A DNA stretch of 64,000 nucleotides from Roseivirga sp. E12 (GTDB taxonomy: Bacteria > Bacteroidota > Bacteroidia > Cytophagales > Cyclobacteriaceae). Numbering within the stretch: position 1 is the stretch's first letter; every line of letters starts with the position of its first letter. The stretch covers positions 1,178,001 through 1,242,000 of the forward strand of contig NZ_JAGFMD010000001.1 in assembly GCF_017592825.1 (NCBI RefSeq), given 5' to 3'. Below, piece after piece: positions 13,610-17,560 of this stretch. The position numbers and the translations under genes are program-made. Below the pieces are notes generated by a model. That model saw only the letters and a list, made by a program, of their open reading frames with translations. It did not search any database and had not been told where the DNA came from.

Positions 13610-13685
13610 AGTCAATTCATACGATAGCGCTTGAGGTTTGCACTCGCTAAATAATTCCGATATCTTGCGCCCTTTCAAAAATCAC

Positions 13686-14429
13686 ATGGAGATACTGGGC
13701 ATAGACGTTGGCGGAAGCGGTATTAAAGGAGCAATTGTCGATACCAAGTCAGGATATTTAATTTCAGACCGATTCAGAATACCTACACCAGAGGGACGTA
13801 GACCAGATGACATCGCTGATGTTATCAGTAATATTCAGGAGCACTTTAACTGGAATGACAATATTGGCGTAGCCTTTCCTACCGTAGTAGTTAACGGCAA
13901 AGCTAAGTATCACAGCAACCTTGATGAGAGCTGGAAAGGCCTGCAAATTGATGATCTCTTTAGAGGGCGCTGCAATCAAATTTTTAACGTCATCAATGAT
14001 GCTGACGCTGCTGGCTTAGCCGAAATGAAATTTGGAGCTGGGCGCCATCATTCAGGTGTTGTGCTTATGGTAACCATTGGCACCGGCTTGGGTAGTGGCC
14101 TTTTTTATGACGGTGTTTTGGTACCCAACTTTGAACTAGGGCACCTTTACTATAAGAATGGCGATCCAATAGAATTCTATGCTGCTGATTCTGCCAGAAA
14201 AAGAGAAGAATTGAGTTTTGAAAAGTGGGGTAAGCGTCTCAATAGATTCCTAAAACATATTGAACGGGTTATTAACCCTGACTTTATTATCCTAGGAGGT
14301 GGCGTGAGTAAACACATACACAAGTACCGAGACCAAATCACTATTCAAACTCCATTTGTGGTAGGTGAAAAAGAGAACAACTCAGGAATTATTGGTGCCG
14401 CTGCTTATGCCGCTGACCATCACAAGTGA
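13686..14429 (+). CDS. ppgK: Polyphosphate glucokinase (ROK family)
   Basis: A 247-residue ROK-family kinase that phosphorylates glucose to glucose-6-phosphate, typically using polyphosphate. The ATG at 13686 gives MEILGIDVGGSGIKGAIVD, the phosphate loop of the family. The signature TIGTGLGSGLFYDGVLVPN followed by FELGHL is characteristic of polyphosphate glucokinases. The frame could start at an upstream TTG, but that stretch is non-conserved. The last ten bases overlap the end of the opposite-strand VLRF1 gene. It would feed glucose released from storage glucans into metabolism, though it is 13 kb from the glg cluster. Confidence 0.88.
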   Translation: MEILGIDVGGSGIKGAIVDTKSGYLISDRFRIPTPEGRRPDDIADVISNIQEHFNWNDNIGVAFPTVVVNGKAKYHSNLDESWKGLQIDDLFRGRCNQIFNVINDADAAGLAEMKFGAGRHHSGVVLMVTIGTGLGSGLFYDGVLVPNFELGHLYYKNGDPIEFYAADSARKREELSFEKWGKRLNRFLKHIERVINPDFIILGGGVSKHIHKYRDQITIQTPFVVGEKENNSGIIGAAAYAADHHK

Positions 14430-15091
14430 TTTAAACTCGATTCAACCTCAGGAAAAGACTTAGCATCATAAATCAACTCCCCTTTATTCAGGAACCTTTG
14501 CATGCCAAGCATTACCTCAAAATTAGGTTGGTGTAGGTGTTTGGGGATTTTGTAAATCCGCTCATCTTTCCTTTCGAAAGGGGTTGTTACTTTTGAACCA
14601 AACAAGTAGGGCATCAGAATCTTTGAACAACTGAAGGCAATACGGTCAAACTCATTTTCCTTAAAGTGCCTGGTCAGGCGCTCATTGATATCTTCAAAGA
14701 ACAAAAGTGTCTTGGCCAACCTGACCCTAGACCCTGCACGTGATTTGCCTTTAGTCTTCAGGTGTTTAATTTGGCTTACCCCTTGTTTTTTCCGAACCAT
14801 ATAGGCGGTAAACACCTTGTGCTCTAGACATTTTTCTCCCTGAAAAACACCAATAGAAGCACTCCCCGTTTGAACTAAGAGCATCAAGTATTTTACTTCC
14901 GATTCAGAGACGATTCCCTCGGGGGAGATTTTAATTGTAATAGGTAGTCTCAGTTGGAATTCATCTGAACCATTATCAAAGAAATAAGAATGCTTTTCAT
15001 GGTCGTATTGGCAAGAAAAATCAGTCTTATCCATTTCCATCAAAAAATCGAGTACCTCTTGTCGCTTAAGAAAATGATGCTTCTGCTCCAC
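14420..15091 (-). CDS. Vms1/ANKZF1-type VLRF1 domain protein (bacterial release-factor homologue)
   Basis: A 223-residue protein that I recognise as a bacterial member of the VLRF1 group, the eRF1-like release-factor domain of eukaryotic Vms1/ANKZF1, which cuts the peptidyl-tRNA bond on stalled 60S subunits. The central block runs KVFTAYMVRKKQGVSQ (92-107), with the GxxQ catalytic loop G104-V105-S106-Q107. It is followed by SRAGSRVR (117-124), equivalent to the eukaryotic SAGxxLRR stretch, and PFERKDERIYKIPKHLHQPN (171-190), equivalent to the ANKZF1 GDPRLWDIP...RPTF region. The zinc finger, ankyrin repeats and p97-binding helix are absent. It starts at a GTG. Function in bacteria (ribosome rescue) is inference. 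Confidence 0.72.
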   Translation of the reverse strand: MEQKHHFLKRQEVLDFLMEMDKTDFSCQYDHEKHSYFFDNGSDEFQLRLPITIKISPEGIVSESEVKYLMLLVQTGSASIGVFQGEKCLEHKVFTAYMVRKKQGVSQIKHLKTKGKSRAGSRVRLAKTLLFFEDINERLTRHFKENEFDRIAFSCSKILMPYLFGSKVTTPFERKDERIYKIPKHLHQPNFEVMLGMQRFLNKGELIYDAKSFPEVESSLNHL

Positions 15092-15211: not shown

Positions 15212-17560
15212 ATGACCAAGAAAAAAACGAAACGTACCAAGCGATTGAAATGGCTGCTTGCCATCTTCGCTACCATTACCATTGGGGCATTGGGTTTCTT
15301 TTTGAGTGTTTATTGGCAGTTATGGGAGCCCCTTCCTTCCAGAGATCAACTTGCGGACATTAGGCAAAGCGAAGCCACAGAAATTTATGCTGAGGGCGGT
15401 GAGCTACTCGGTAAATATTTCATCTTCGATCGACAACCGATCAACTACGAGCAGATTCCTTCTCAACTGATTGATGCATTAATAGCGACTGAAGATTCAC
15501 GCTTTTTCAAACATAATGGTGTCGATCGAAGAAGTCTACTTAGGGTAATCTTTAAGACCATTCTTCTTCAAGATGAATCTGCGGGAGGTGGAAGTACACT
15601 TTCCCAACAGTTGATTAAGAATCTCTATCCCAGAAAAGATCATGGGGTCTTTTCGATGCCTGTGAGTAAAGTCAAAGAAGCCATTCTAGCTACCAGATTA
15701 GAAAAGATTTATTCAAAGGAAGATATCCTTACCCTTTACTTGAACACAGTCCCTTTTGGAGACAATACCTTCGGCATTGAAAGTGCTGCTGAGAAATTCT
15801 TCGGCAAGGCGGCTGTAGATTTATCACTCGAGGAGTCTGCGGTTATCGTGGGGATGCTAAAAGCGTCTTATCGCTATAACCCTCGACTTTTTCTTGAAAG
15901 GTCGCTACTCAGAAGGAATGTGGTATTGAACCAGATGCAGAAGTACGGTTATCTCACCACCGAAGAGTACAGCATTGTTTCCAAGAAAGCACTGGAGCTT
16001 TCTTACCGCCCCTTTAGTCATAACAAAGGTATTGCTCCCTACTTCAGAGCTTCTTTGAGAAAGAAGGTACAGGATTGGCTCCAATCGTATAACGACTCTA
16101 CAGGCAACGACTATAACCTCTTTACTAGCGGTCTCAAAATCTATACGACACTCGACTATGAGATGCAAAAGTTGGCAGAGGAAGCCACAAAGGAACACCT
16201 GTCCACCTTGCAGTCTGATTTTGAGAAGAGTTATGGAAAAAATGCACCATGGTTAAAGAATCAAGACATCATCAGAAGTGAAATTAAAAATTCCCCAACC
16301 TACATCAGACTAAATGCAAAAGGTCTATCAGAATCACAAATTCTTGATTCAATGAGCGCAAAACATAATGTAGAGCTCTGGGACTGGAATGGGAAGAAGG
16401 TCGTGCAGGTAAGCACCTTAGATAGCATAAGACATTATAAGAAGTTCCTCAATGCAGGTGTACTCTCGGTAAACCCATATTCAGGTCAGGTGAAGGCCTG
16501 GGTGGGGGGAATCGATTTTGAGCATTTTCAATACGATCATGTAAGGCAGAGTAAGCGGCAAGTCGGTTCGACTTTTAAGCCTATCGTTTATGCAACTGCG
16601 GTAGAAAACGGAATTGACCCTTGCAAATTCTACTCTGCCCGTCAAGTGACTTATGCCAATTACAACAATTGGACGCCAACCAATGATGGCGCTTCGGACT
16701 ATGACAAACGCTATGCAATGAAAGCTGCTTTGAGTGGTTCTGTCAATACTGTGGCGGTCAAGGTAATGGAAGATGGCGGTATGATGAACGTGATTGATCT
16801 GGCACATAACATGGGCATTGAGTCTGAAATTCCGGAAGTGCCCTCCATAGCCCTTGGCACTGCTGAACTGTCGGTAATGGAATTGACCAAAGCATATACC
16901 AGCTTTCTGAATAGCGGAAAACCCGTATCTCCCTATTTTATTTCAAGGATTGAGAATAGTGATGGCGAGGTACTAGCTTCCTTCAAGACTGAAACTGTCG
17001 ACTCTCCTGTCTTCTCTGAAGAAACCAGAGAAGTCATGATTGAGATGATGAAGGGCGTGATTGAAGAAGGAACAGGACAACGCCTTCGATGGTCATACGG
17101 ACTTCAAAACGATATTGCAGGTAAGACAGGTACTACACAAGATAACAAGGATGGTTGGTTCGTGGGCCTAACACCTAGACTGGTAACTGTAACTTGGGTG
17201 GGTGCTGATGATCACCGAGTTGGATTCAAAACAACCGCTATGGGGCAAGGGGCAAACTCAGCATTACCCATATTCGGAAAGCTTTTCCAAAAAATGAATG
17301 CCGACAGTCATTTTGATCGCTATACCAAAGTCCGTTTCCCTCCTGTTTCCATCAATACTTTGAATCGAATGTCCTGCATTCCGGAAAAGAAAGAAGGCTT
17401 GCTAAATCGAGTTTTTGTCAATAACGACAAACCTCAAGTGTCAGAGTTCAAAGGTGGTAATAAGACTGCTGAGCCAAAGAAGAAAGAAGGTATCTTCAAA
17501 AAGATTGGCAATCTCTTTAAGCGTAAGGACAAGAAAAAGAAAGACAAGAAAGGATCTTAA
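15212..17560 (+). CDS. Penicillin-binding protein 1A (transglycosylase/transpeptidase)
   Basis: A 782-residue bifunctional class A penicillin-binding protein that polymerises and cross-links peptidoglycan in the periplasm. A short basic cytoplasmic tail is followed by one membrane helix (about 13-35). The GT51 domain has the catalytic glutamate in ATEDSRFFKHNGVD (E94) and GGGSTLSQQLIKNLYP. The transpeptidase domain shows the active-site serine in RQVGSTFKPIVYA (S453), SGSVNTVAVK (SxN) and GKTGTTQDNKDGW (KTG). The last 40 residues are extremely lysine-rich. The stop interlocks with that of the opposite-strand saccharopine dehydrogenase gene. Confidence 0.96.
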   Translation: MTKKKTKRTKRLKWLLAIFATITIGALGFFLSVYWQLWEPLPSRDQLADIRQSEATEIYAEGGELLGKYFIFDRQPINYEQIPSQLIDALIATEDSRFFKHNGVDRRSLLRVIFKTILLQDESAGGGSTLSQQLIKNLYPRKDHGVFSMPVSKVKEAILATRLEKIYSKEDILTLYLNTVPFGDNTFGIESAAEKFFGKAAVDLSLEESAVIVGMLKASYRYNPRLFLERSLLRRNVVLNQMQKYGYLTTEEYSIVSKKALELSYRPFSHNKGIAPYFRASLRKKVQDWLQSYNDSTGNDYNLFTSGLKIYTTLDYEMQKLAEEATKEHLSTLQSDFEKSYGKNAPWLKNQDIIRSEIKNSPTYIRLNAKGLSESQILDSMSAKHNVELWDWNGKKVVQVSTLDSIRHYKKFLNAGVLSVNPYSGQVKAWVGGIDFEHFQYDHVRQSKRQVGSTFKPIVYATAVENGIDPCKFYSARQVTYANYNNWTPTNDGASDYDKRYAMKAALSGSVNTVAVKVMEDGGMMNVIDLAHNMGIESEIPEVPSIALGTAELSVMELTKAYTSFLNSGKPVSPYFISRIENSDGEVLASFKTETVDSPVFSEETREVMIEMMKGVIEEGTGQRLRWSYGLQNDIAGKTGTTQDNKDGWFVGLTPRLVTVTWVGADDHRVGFKTTAMGQGANSALPIFGKLFQKMNADSHFDRYTKVRFPPVSINTLNRMSCIPEKKEGLLNRVFVNNDKPQVSEFKGGNKTAEPKKKEGIFKKIGNLFKRKDKKKKDKKGS

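Follow-up and report, generated by a model that had tools for sequence, protein, structure and literature searches.

What does a bacterial protein related to the catalytic domain of Vms1/ANKZF1 do in a host that appears to lack RqcH, given that Vms1 works with Rqc2 in yeast and that RqcH is the bacterial counterpart of Rqc2? The question is raised by a gene in a 64,000-nucleotide stretch of the genome of Roseivirga sp. E12 (the whole of which is referred to here as the window), for which an initial annotation, made from the sequence letters, had proposed a bacterial homologue of the VLRF1 domain with a role in ribosome-associated quality control (RQC) in a member of the Bacteroidota. The host is indeed a member of that phylum, and below we consider to which family the protein belongs, which residues it shares with Vms1, which partners its genome offers and which function is then the most plausible.

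Family membership

The gene (14420..15091, minus strand) is a 223-codon frame with a GTG start at 15091 and its end at 14420, encodes a protein of 223 aa and is present as a single copy in the host genome, as judged by a genome search. In Pfam-A, the protein matches PF18826 (bVLRF1, 'Bacteroidetes VLRF1 release factor') over residues 69-202 with an E-value of 6.6e-29 and a score of 101.2 bits, where the cut-off is 27, and this is the sole Pfam family above its cut-off. bVLRF1 was described in 2019 by Burroughs and Aravind, who, in the accessible text of their paper, place it nearest to eukaryotic Vms1/ANKZF1 and characterize its members as carrying a GxuQ motif, being found mostly in Bacteroidetes, standing alone and likely being active (PMC6514570). 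The window protein resembles this family in its score far above the cut-off, its GxuQ loop, the arginines in the following helix, its Bacteroidota host and its stand-alone architecture, and it has no feature that sets it apart. Judged by its sequence, it is a member of bVLRF1 and as such a stand-alone bacterial relative of the Vms1/ANKZF1 catalytic domain; it is a rediscovery of a family that already has a published description and a Pfam model, and is not new. Vms1/ANKZF1 itself has a zinc finger, ankyrin repeats and a VIM, whereas the 223-aa window protein has none of these in Pfam searches, in agreement with the earlier expectation that the zinc finger and p97-binding parts would be missing. 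It had also been expected that annotation pipelines would call the protein hypothetical, which holds for NCBIfam, where no model names it, but not for Pfam, where bVLRF1 does. When 26 aligned rows including the window protein were compared with NCBIfam, two weak and unrelated-looking matches were obtained (E 0.006-0.007). The NCBIfam model for acVLRF1 (NF041024), a family assigned to the same VLRF-1 clade in the accessible text of PMC6514570, gives the window protein 11.7 bits, below its cut-off of 125; acVLRF1 carries GGxSQ according to the same source, whereas the window protein carries KQGxSQ.

Conservation was read from an alignment of 63 hand-picked rows, made up of the window protein, 25 proteins from named loci, which came from a search requiring one of two conserved motifs, and 37 proteins from a search with the Pfam model that used no motif filter; all 63 rows match Pfam bVLRF1. 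Before this alignment was made, 133 rows had been extracted (54 from family-level genomes and 79 from named loci), and rows obtained later from the genus lie outside it. The family-level genomes with bVLRF1 number 58, namely 56 of 118 together with G111 and G194 from a phylum sample, and 54 of them were fetched; the other four are G331, G370, G377 and G391, of which G370 scores low (E 7e-15). Genes were extracted by motif patterns, to which none of the 54 family-level rows was lost.

The catalytic loop and its chemistry

All three segments quoted in the initial annotation are present in the 223-aa frame: KQGVSQ in the catalytic loop (residues 102-107; 14771..14788, minus strand), SRAGSRVR at the start of the basic helix (residues 117-124; 14720..14743, minus strand) and the C-terminal block ERKDERIYKIP (residues 173-183; 14543..14575, minus strand). 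When the window is translated in all six frames, the pattern KQG.SQ occurs once. In the family-profile alignment, the yeast Vms1 segments YTTRRKQGGSQ, SAGSALRR and NKGDERIKSFP lie over these three blocks in the same order, which is the order that had been claimed for the segments of ANKZF1. R288, G292, S294 and Q295 of Vms1 align with R100, G104, S106 and Q107 of the window protein. In the accessible text of PMC5989216, the R288A and G292A/G293A variants of Vms1 abolish release, and release is strongly impaired by Q295L, by G292A and by loss of S294. Across the 63 rows, R100, G104 and Q107 are invariant, so that the loop glutamine singled out at the outset is found in every row, and S106 is conserved in 62; among the 37 rows obtained with the Pfam model only, the first three residues are conserved in all 37 and S106 in 36. 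The counterpart of Vms1 G293 is V105, in a variable column, and the GxuQ motif of the window protein reads G104-V105-S106-Q107. Further along, R122 and R124 occur in 63/63 rows and lie in a helix that spans residues 118-145 in an AlphaFold model. Residues 96-125 contain ten lysines or arginines and no aspartate or glutamate, and mean column identity is 0.92 over residues 91-125 compared with 0.49 elsewhere.

Bond cleavage by bVLRF1 would be either ester hydrolysis or CCA removal. The latter, in which the CCA end of P-site peptidyl-tRNA is taken off by tRNA cleavage, is compatible with the release function proposed below, and we regard it as a serious possibility while leaning slightly against it. 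The accessible parts of two reports (PMC12868832, PMC11317155) assign to Vms1/ANKZF1 an endonuclease activity by which the CCA end is removed, whereas ester hydrolysis has been argued from the GxuQ motif (PMC6514570) and peptidyl-tRNA hydrolysis by Vms1 has been reported (PMC5989216), again in the accessible text of these sources; sequence alone cannot decide between the two chemistries.

Predicted fold and likeness to Balon

In a single-sequence search of PDB sequences, only Vms1 chains were matched (best E 0.0031), and a profile of the 63 rows likewise matched only Vms1, with E-values of 1.9e-8 to 3.8e-8; at E up to 10, the matches comprised three distinct chains, all of them Vms1. At the sequence level, the likeness of the window protein to Vms1 is far beyond chance, and together with the Pfam match it bears out the homology first proposed. 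The AlphaFold model of the window protein has a mean pLDDT of 91.1 and a pTM of 0.84, but pLDDT falls to 52-55 at residues 101-120, the catalytic loop, and the placement of Q107 in the model is therefore not usable. In a Foldseek search with this model, ranks 1-3 are taken by Vms1-60S complexes (E 1.5e-5 to 9.3e-5), ranks 4, 5 and 7 by Balon, rank 6 by the Vms1 crystal structure, rank 8 by eRF1 and rank 12 by 2hst, the eRF1 middle domain (E 2.2e-3, TM-score 0.50 of the target). The TM-scores are moderate, with a best value of 0.52 of the query at an rmsd of 4.7, and the rmsd at ranks 2 and 3 is near 12. As to the N-terminal extension that bVLRF1 would share with eukaryotic VLRF1, the model is confident over residues 1-66, and the top Foldseek alignment spans 193 columns, counted over the protein as a whole. 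The structural comparison suggested earlier thus ranks Vms1 first and also finds the eRF1 middle domain, and neither of the two outcomes named beforehand as refuting the homology, namely no match to VLRF1 and a fold unlike that domain, occurred.

The Balon chains in this ranking bring up another reading, in which bVLRF1 would occupy ribosomes as a non-catalytic hibernation factor in the manner of Balon, which is likewise a bacterial protein of the eRF1 superfamily. A weak second Pfam match of the window protein, to baeRF family 10 (E 0.0055), would fit this reading, as would matches of 6/63 rows to the same family at E up to 0.001. The window protein nonetheless stays under the cut-off of baeRF family 10 (17.4 compared with 27.1 bits) and retains the invariant loop glutamine, which baeRF families usually lack, with family 10 being an exception, according to the accessible text of PMC6514570. 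In addition, a Pfam scan of nine neighbouring genes, one of which had no match at all, found no hibernation factor. On this evidence we consider a Balon-like role unlikely, and favour a catalytic release factor.

Search for RqcH, and rescue factors present in the host

The genome of the host gave no match to NFACT_N, a profile that was positive in 11/14 control genomes, and no match at E up to 1 to an RqcH profile of 15 rows. The latter profile detects ten genus members that are not among its rows, each with an E-value of 6e-141 or lower (a match of 3e-238 in G273 is to one of its own rows), so a normal RqcH would not be missed in the host. Since RqcH is the core bacterial RQC factor, the role in RQC put forward in the initial annotation is weakened in its usual sense, and what stands of it is a possible RqcH-independent release on split 50S subunits. 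Other rescue factors are present in the host: a tmRNA with the tag GERQYALAA, two long frames for release factors and ArfB, which is recognizable as a GGQ protein of 139 aa whose tail is basic. Because the host has both tmRNA and ArfB, it is not evident why it should need yet another rescue factor. Like the proposed activity of bVLRF1, that of ArfB is the Gln-dependent activity of a bacterial rescue hydrolase, but the ArfB domain is unrelated to bVLRF1 and binds stalled whole ribosomes. The host also encodes an Smr domain in a frame of 788 codons, which is the size of MutS2 (only the Smr part was scanned); such domains lie in frames of 788-814 codons in 18/19 genomes of the genus and in a frame of 577 codons in the remaining one.

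Distribution of bVLRF1 with and without RqcH

Among 19 genomes of the genus, bVLRF1 was found in 16 and RqcH in 10. Assemblies of four and five contigs at 99% completeness are among the nine genomes in which RqcH was undetected, and loss (or regain) of RqcH has therefore taken place inside the genus. Mapping the RqcH label on a gene tree of bVLRF1, built from 15 rows of the genus and five outgroups, takes three changes, two of them forced by well-supported branches; the tree left out G419, from which the gene could not be extracted, and it cannot date the losses of RqcH. bVLRF1 occurs in 8/10 RqcH-bearing and in 8/9 RqcH-less genomes, and in all seven of the RqcH-less genomes that are more than 90% complete, the two others being 80-84% complete. 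The loop is intact in each of the seven genes that were extracted from the eight RqcH-less genomes with bVLRF1. Between G000 and G414, both RqcH-less, the gene has changed at 13% of its nonsynonymous sites and at 82% of its synonymous ones; raw proportions are quoted here in place of dN/dS, since synonymous sites are saturated in most pairs. As the gene is kept, with an intact loop and under strong constraint, in genomes without RqcH, bVLRF1 seems to work independently of it.

These observations bear on an alternative in which bVLRF1 is the dedicated termination factor of RqcH-based RQC, as Vms1 is with Rqc2, and in which the RqcH-less carriers merely retain it as a leftover. Within the family (118 genomes), bVLRF1 was found in 56 genomes, NFACT_N in 110 and both in 52, and the presence of NFACT_N in 52 of the 56 genomes with bVLRF1 is what such a partnership would predict. 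The bVLRF1 carriers among the 110 also have weaker NFACT_N scores than the non-carriers (Mann-Whitney p 1.2e-6), which could mean co-evolution, but the test ignores phylogeny and we do not rely on it as a sign that RqcH has diverged together with bVLRF1. G373, scored as lacking NFACT_N, carries a partial RqcH at a contig end, so the RqcH-less genomes among the 118 number seven; three of these have bVLRF1, two of them belonging to the window's genus, and one of the seven is only 52% complete. Against the alternative are the near-equal presence of bVLRF1 in RqcH-less and RqcH-bearing genomes of the genus, the intact loop and the constraint between two RqcH-less species, all given above, as well as the statement, in the accessible text of PMC6514570, that in prokaryotes the members of the family occur independently of the remaining RQC components. 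We therefore hold a dedicated role in RqcH-based RQC to be unlikely, and return to release that is independent of RqcH.

Proposed function

In the model that we favour, bVLRF1 would resemble its eukaryotic relatives in cutting peptidyl-tRNA on large subunits that have been split off, and in the window's host this release would proceed without RqcH and hence without alanine tails. We consider it probable that bVLRF1 acts in this way, here with neither RqcH nor alanine tailing, on the basis of its family, its predicted fold, its residues shared with Vms1 and its retention in RqcH-less genomes. Points that count against the model are the failure to detect RqcH in the host, the presence of tmRNA and ArfB there, the low confidence of the modelled loop, the moderate TM-scores, the valine in place of Vms1 G293, the lack of a shared operon with translation genes and the narrow distribution of bVLRF1 in the phylum. 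A more specific version is offered tentatively, as a possibility rather than an expectation: in RqcH-less Roseivirga, bVLRF1 alone would clear the 50S-peptidyl-tRNA left by MutS2, with release taking the place of both tailing and Pth, while in relatives that have both RqcH and an acidic C-terminal Trp tail, this tail may tie bVLRF1 to RQC or to the ribosome. If this holds, quality control in RqcH-less Roseivirga would run in two steps and dispense with alanine tailing. More broadly, some of the Bacteroidota have in bVLRF1 a candidate release factor, first predicted in 2019. The genus, in which 10/19 genomes have RqcH and 16/19 have bVLRF1, offers a natural experiment for telling the two apart. 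A search of the open-access literature, which leaves most subscription journals and preprints outside its range, found no biochemistry on any bVLRF1 member.

Gene neighbourhood

At its 3' end, the bVLRF1 gene overlaps by ten bases with a convergent ROK-family gene (13638..14429, plus strand; PF00480), and on its other side lies a divergent gene for a class A penicillin-binding protein (15212..17560, plus strand; PF00912 and PF00905); both are outside the bVLRF1 system, and no operon partner is seen at the window locus. Promoter-like and terminator-like matches are about as numerous as in shuffled sequence. Neighbourhoods were clustered for 80 loci with 6-kb flanks, comprising the window and 79 of 80 named loci, which are the best 80 of 211 and come mainly from Pontibacter, Rufibacter and Roseivirga; L084 was left out, as it lies at a contig end where no whole gene is readable. 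Apart from a frame antisense to bVLRF1, which appears in 33/80 loci and is counted as an artefact, no neighbour family is present in more than 22/80 loci, and an operon link between bVLRF1 and translation genes was rejected for this reason. The genes that flank bVLRF1 in the window are found again in 10 to 13 of the 80 loci. Among the best 80 of 211 named loci, the eight best are from Roseivirga, with 60-68% identity (R. pacifica is lower, at 52%), and carriers beyond the genus include Pontibacter, Rufibacter, Adhaeribacter, Fulvivirga, Echinicola and Belliella.

RqcH in the phylum and a C-terminal tryptophan tail

In a phylum sample of 296 genomes, bVLRF1 was found in five, all in the window's own family, and NFACT_N was matched in 223, in 219 of them above the cut-off. 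For the FCB group, rqcH was counted in 404 of 1,956 genomes in a published survey (Table 1 in the accessible text of PMC11633108), a count that differs from ours in sampling as well as in method; divergent RqcH proteins of the Bacteroidota may be under-counted in print.

A separate observation concerns the C-terminus: in 32/54 family-level bVLRF1 proteins, Trp is the very last residue and follows acidic ones, mostly as [DE][DE][DN]W (for example, L002, L010, L016 and L027). In 31 of these 32 proteins, the Trp lies 104-113 residues past the basic helix motif. The tail looks like a docking tail and may tie bVLRF1 to another component of RQC or of the ribosome in RqcH-bearing relatives. In contrast to these relatives, the window protein ends without such a tail, which is also missing from 14/15 genes of the genus, the exception being that of G412, which ends in EIAW. 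Of the 79 proteins from named loci, 20 also terminate in Trp, and several from Pontibacter have longer acidic tails that end in EW or WD.
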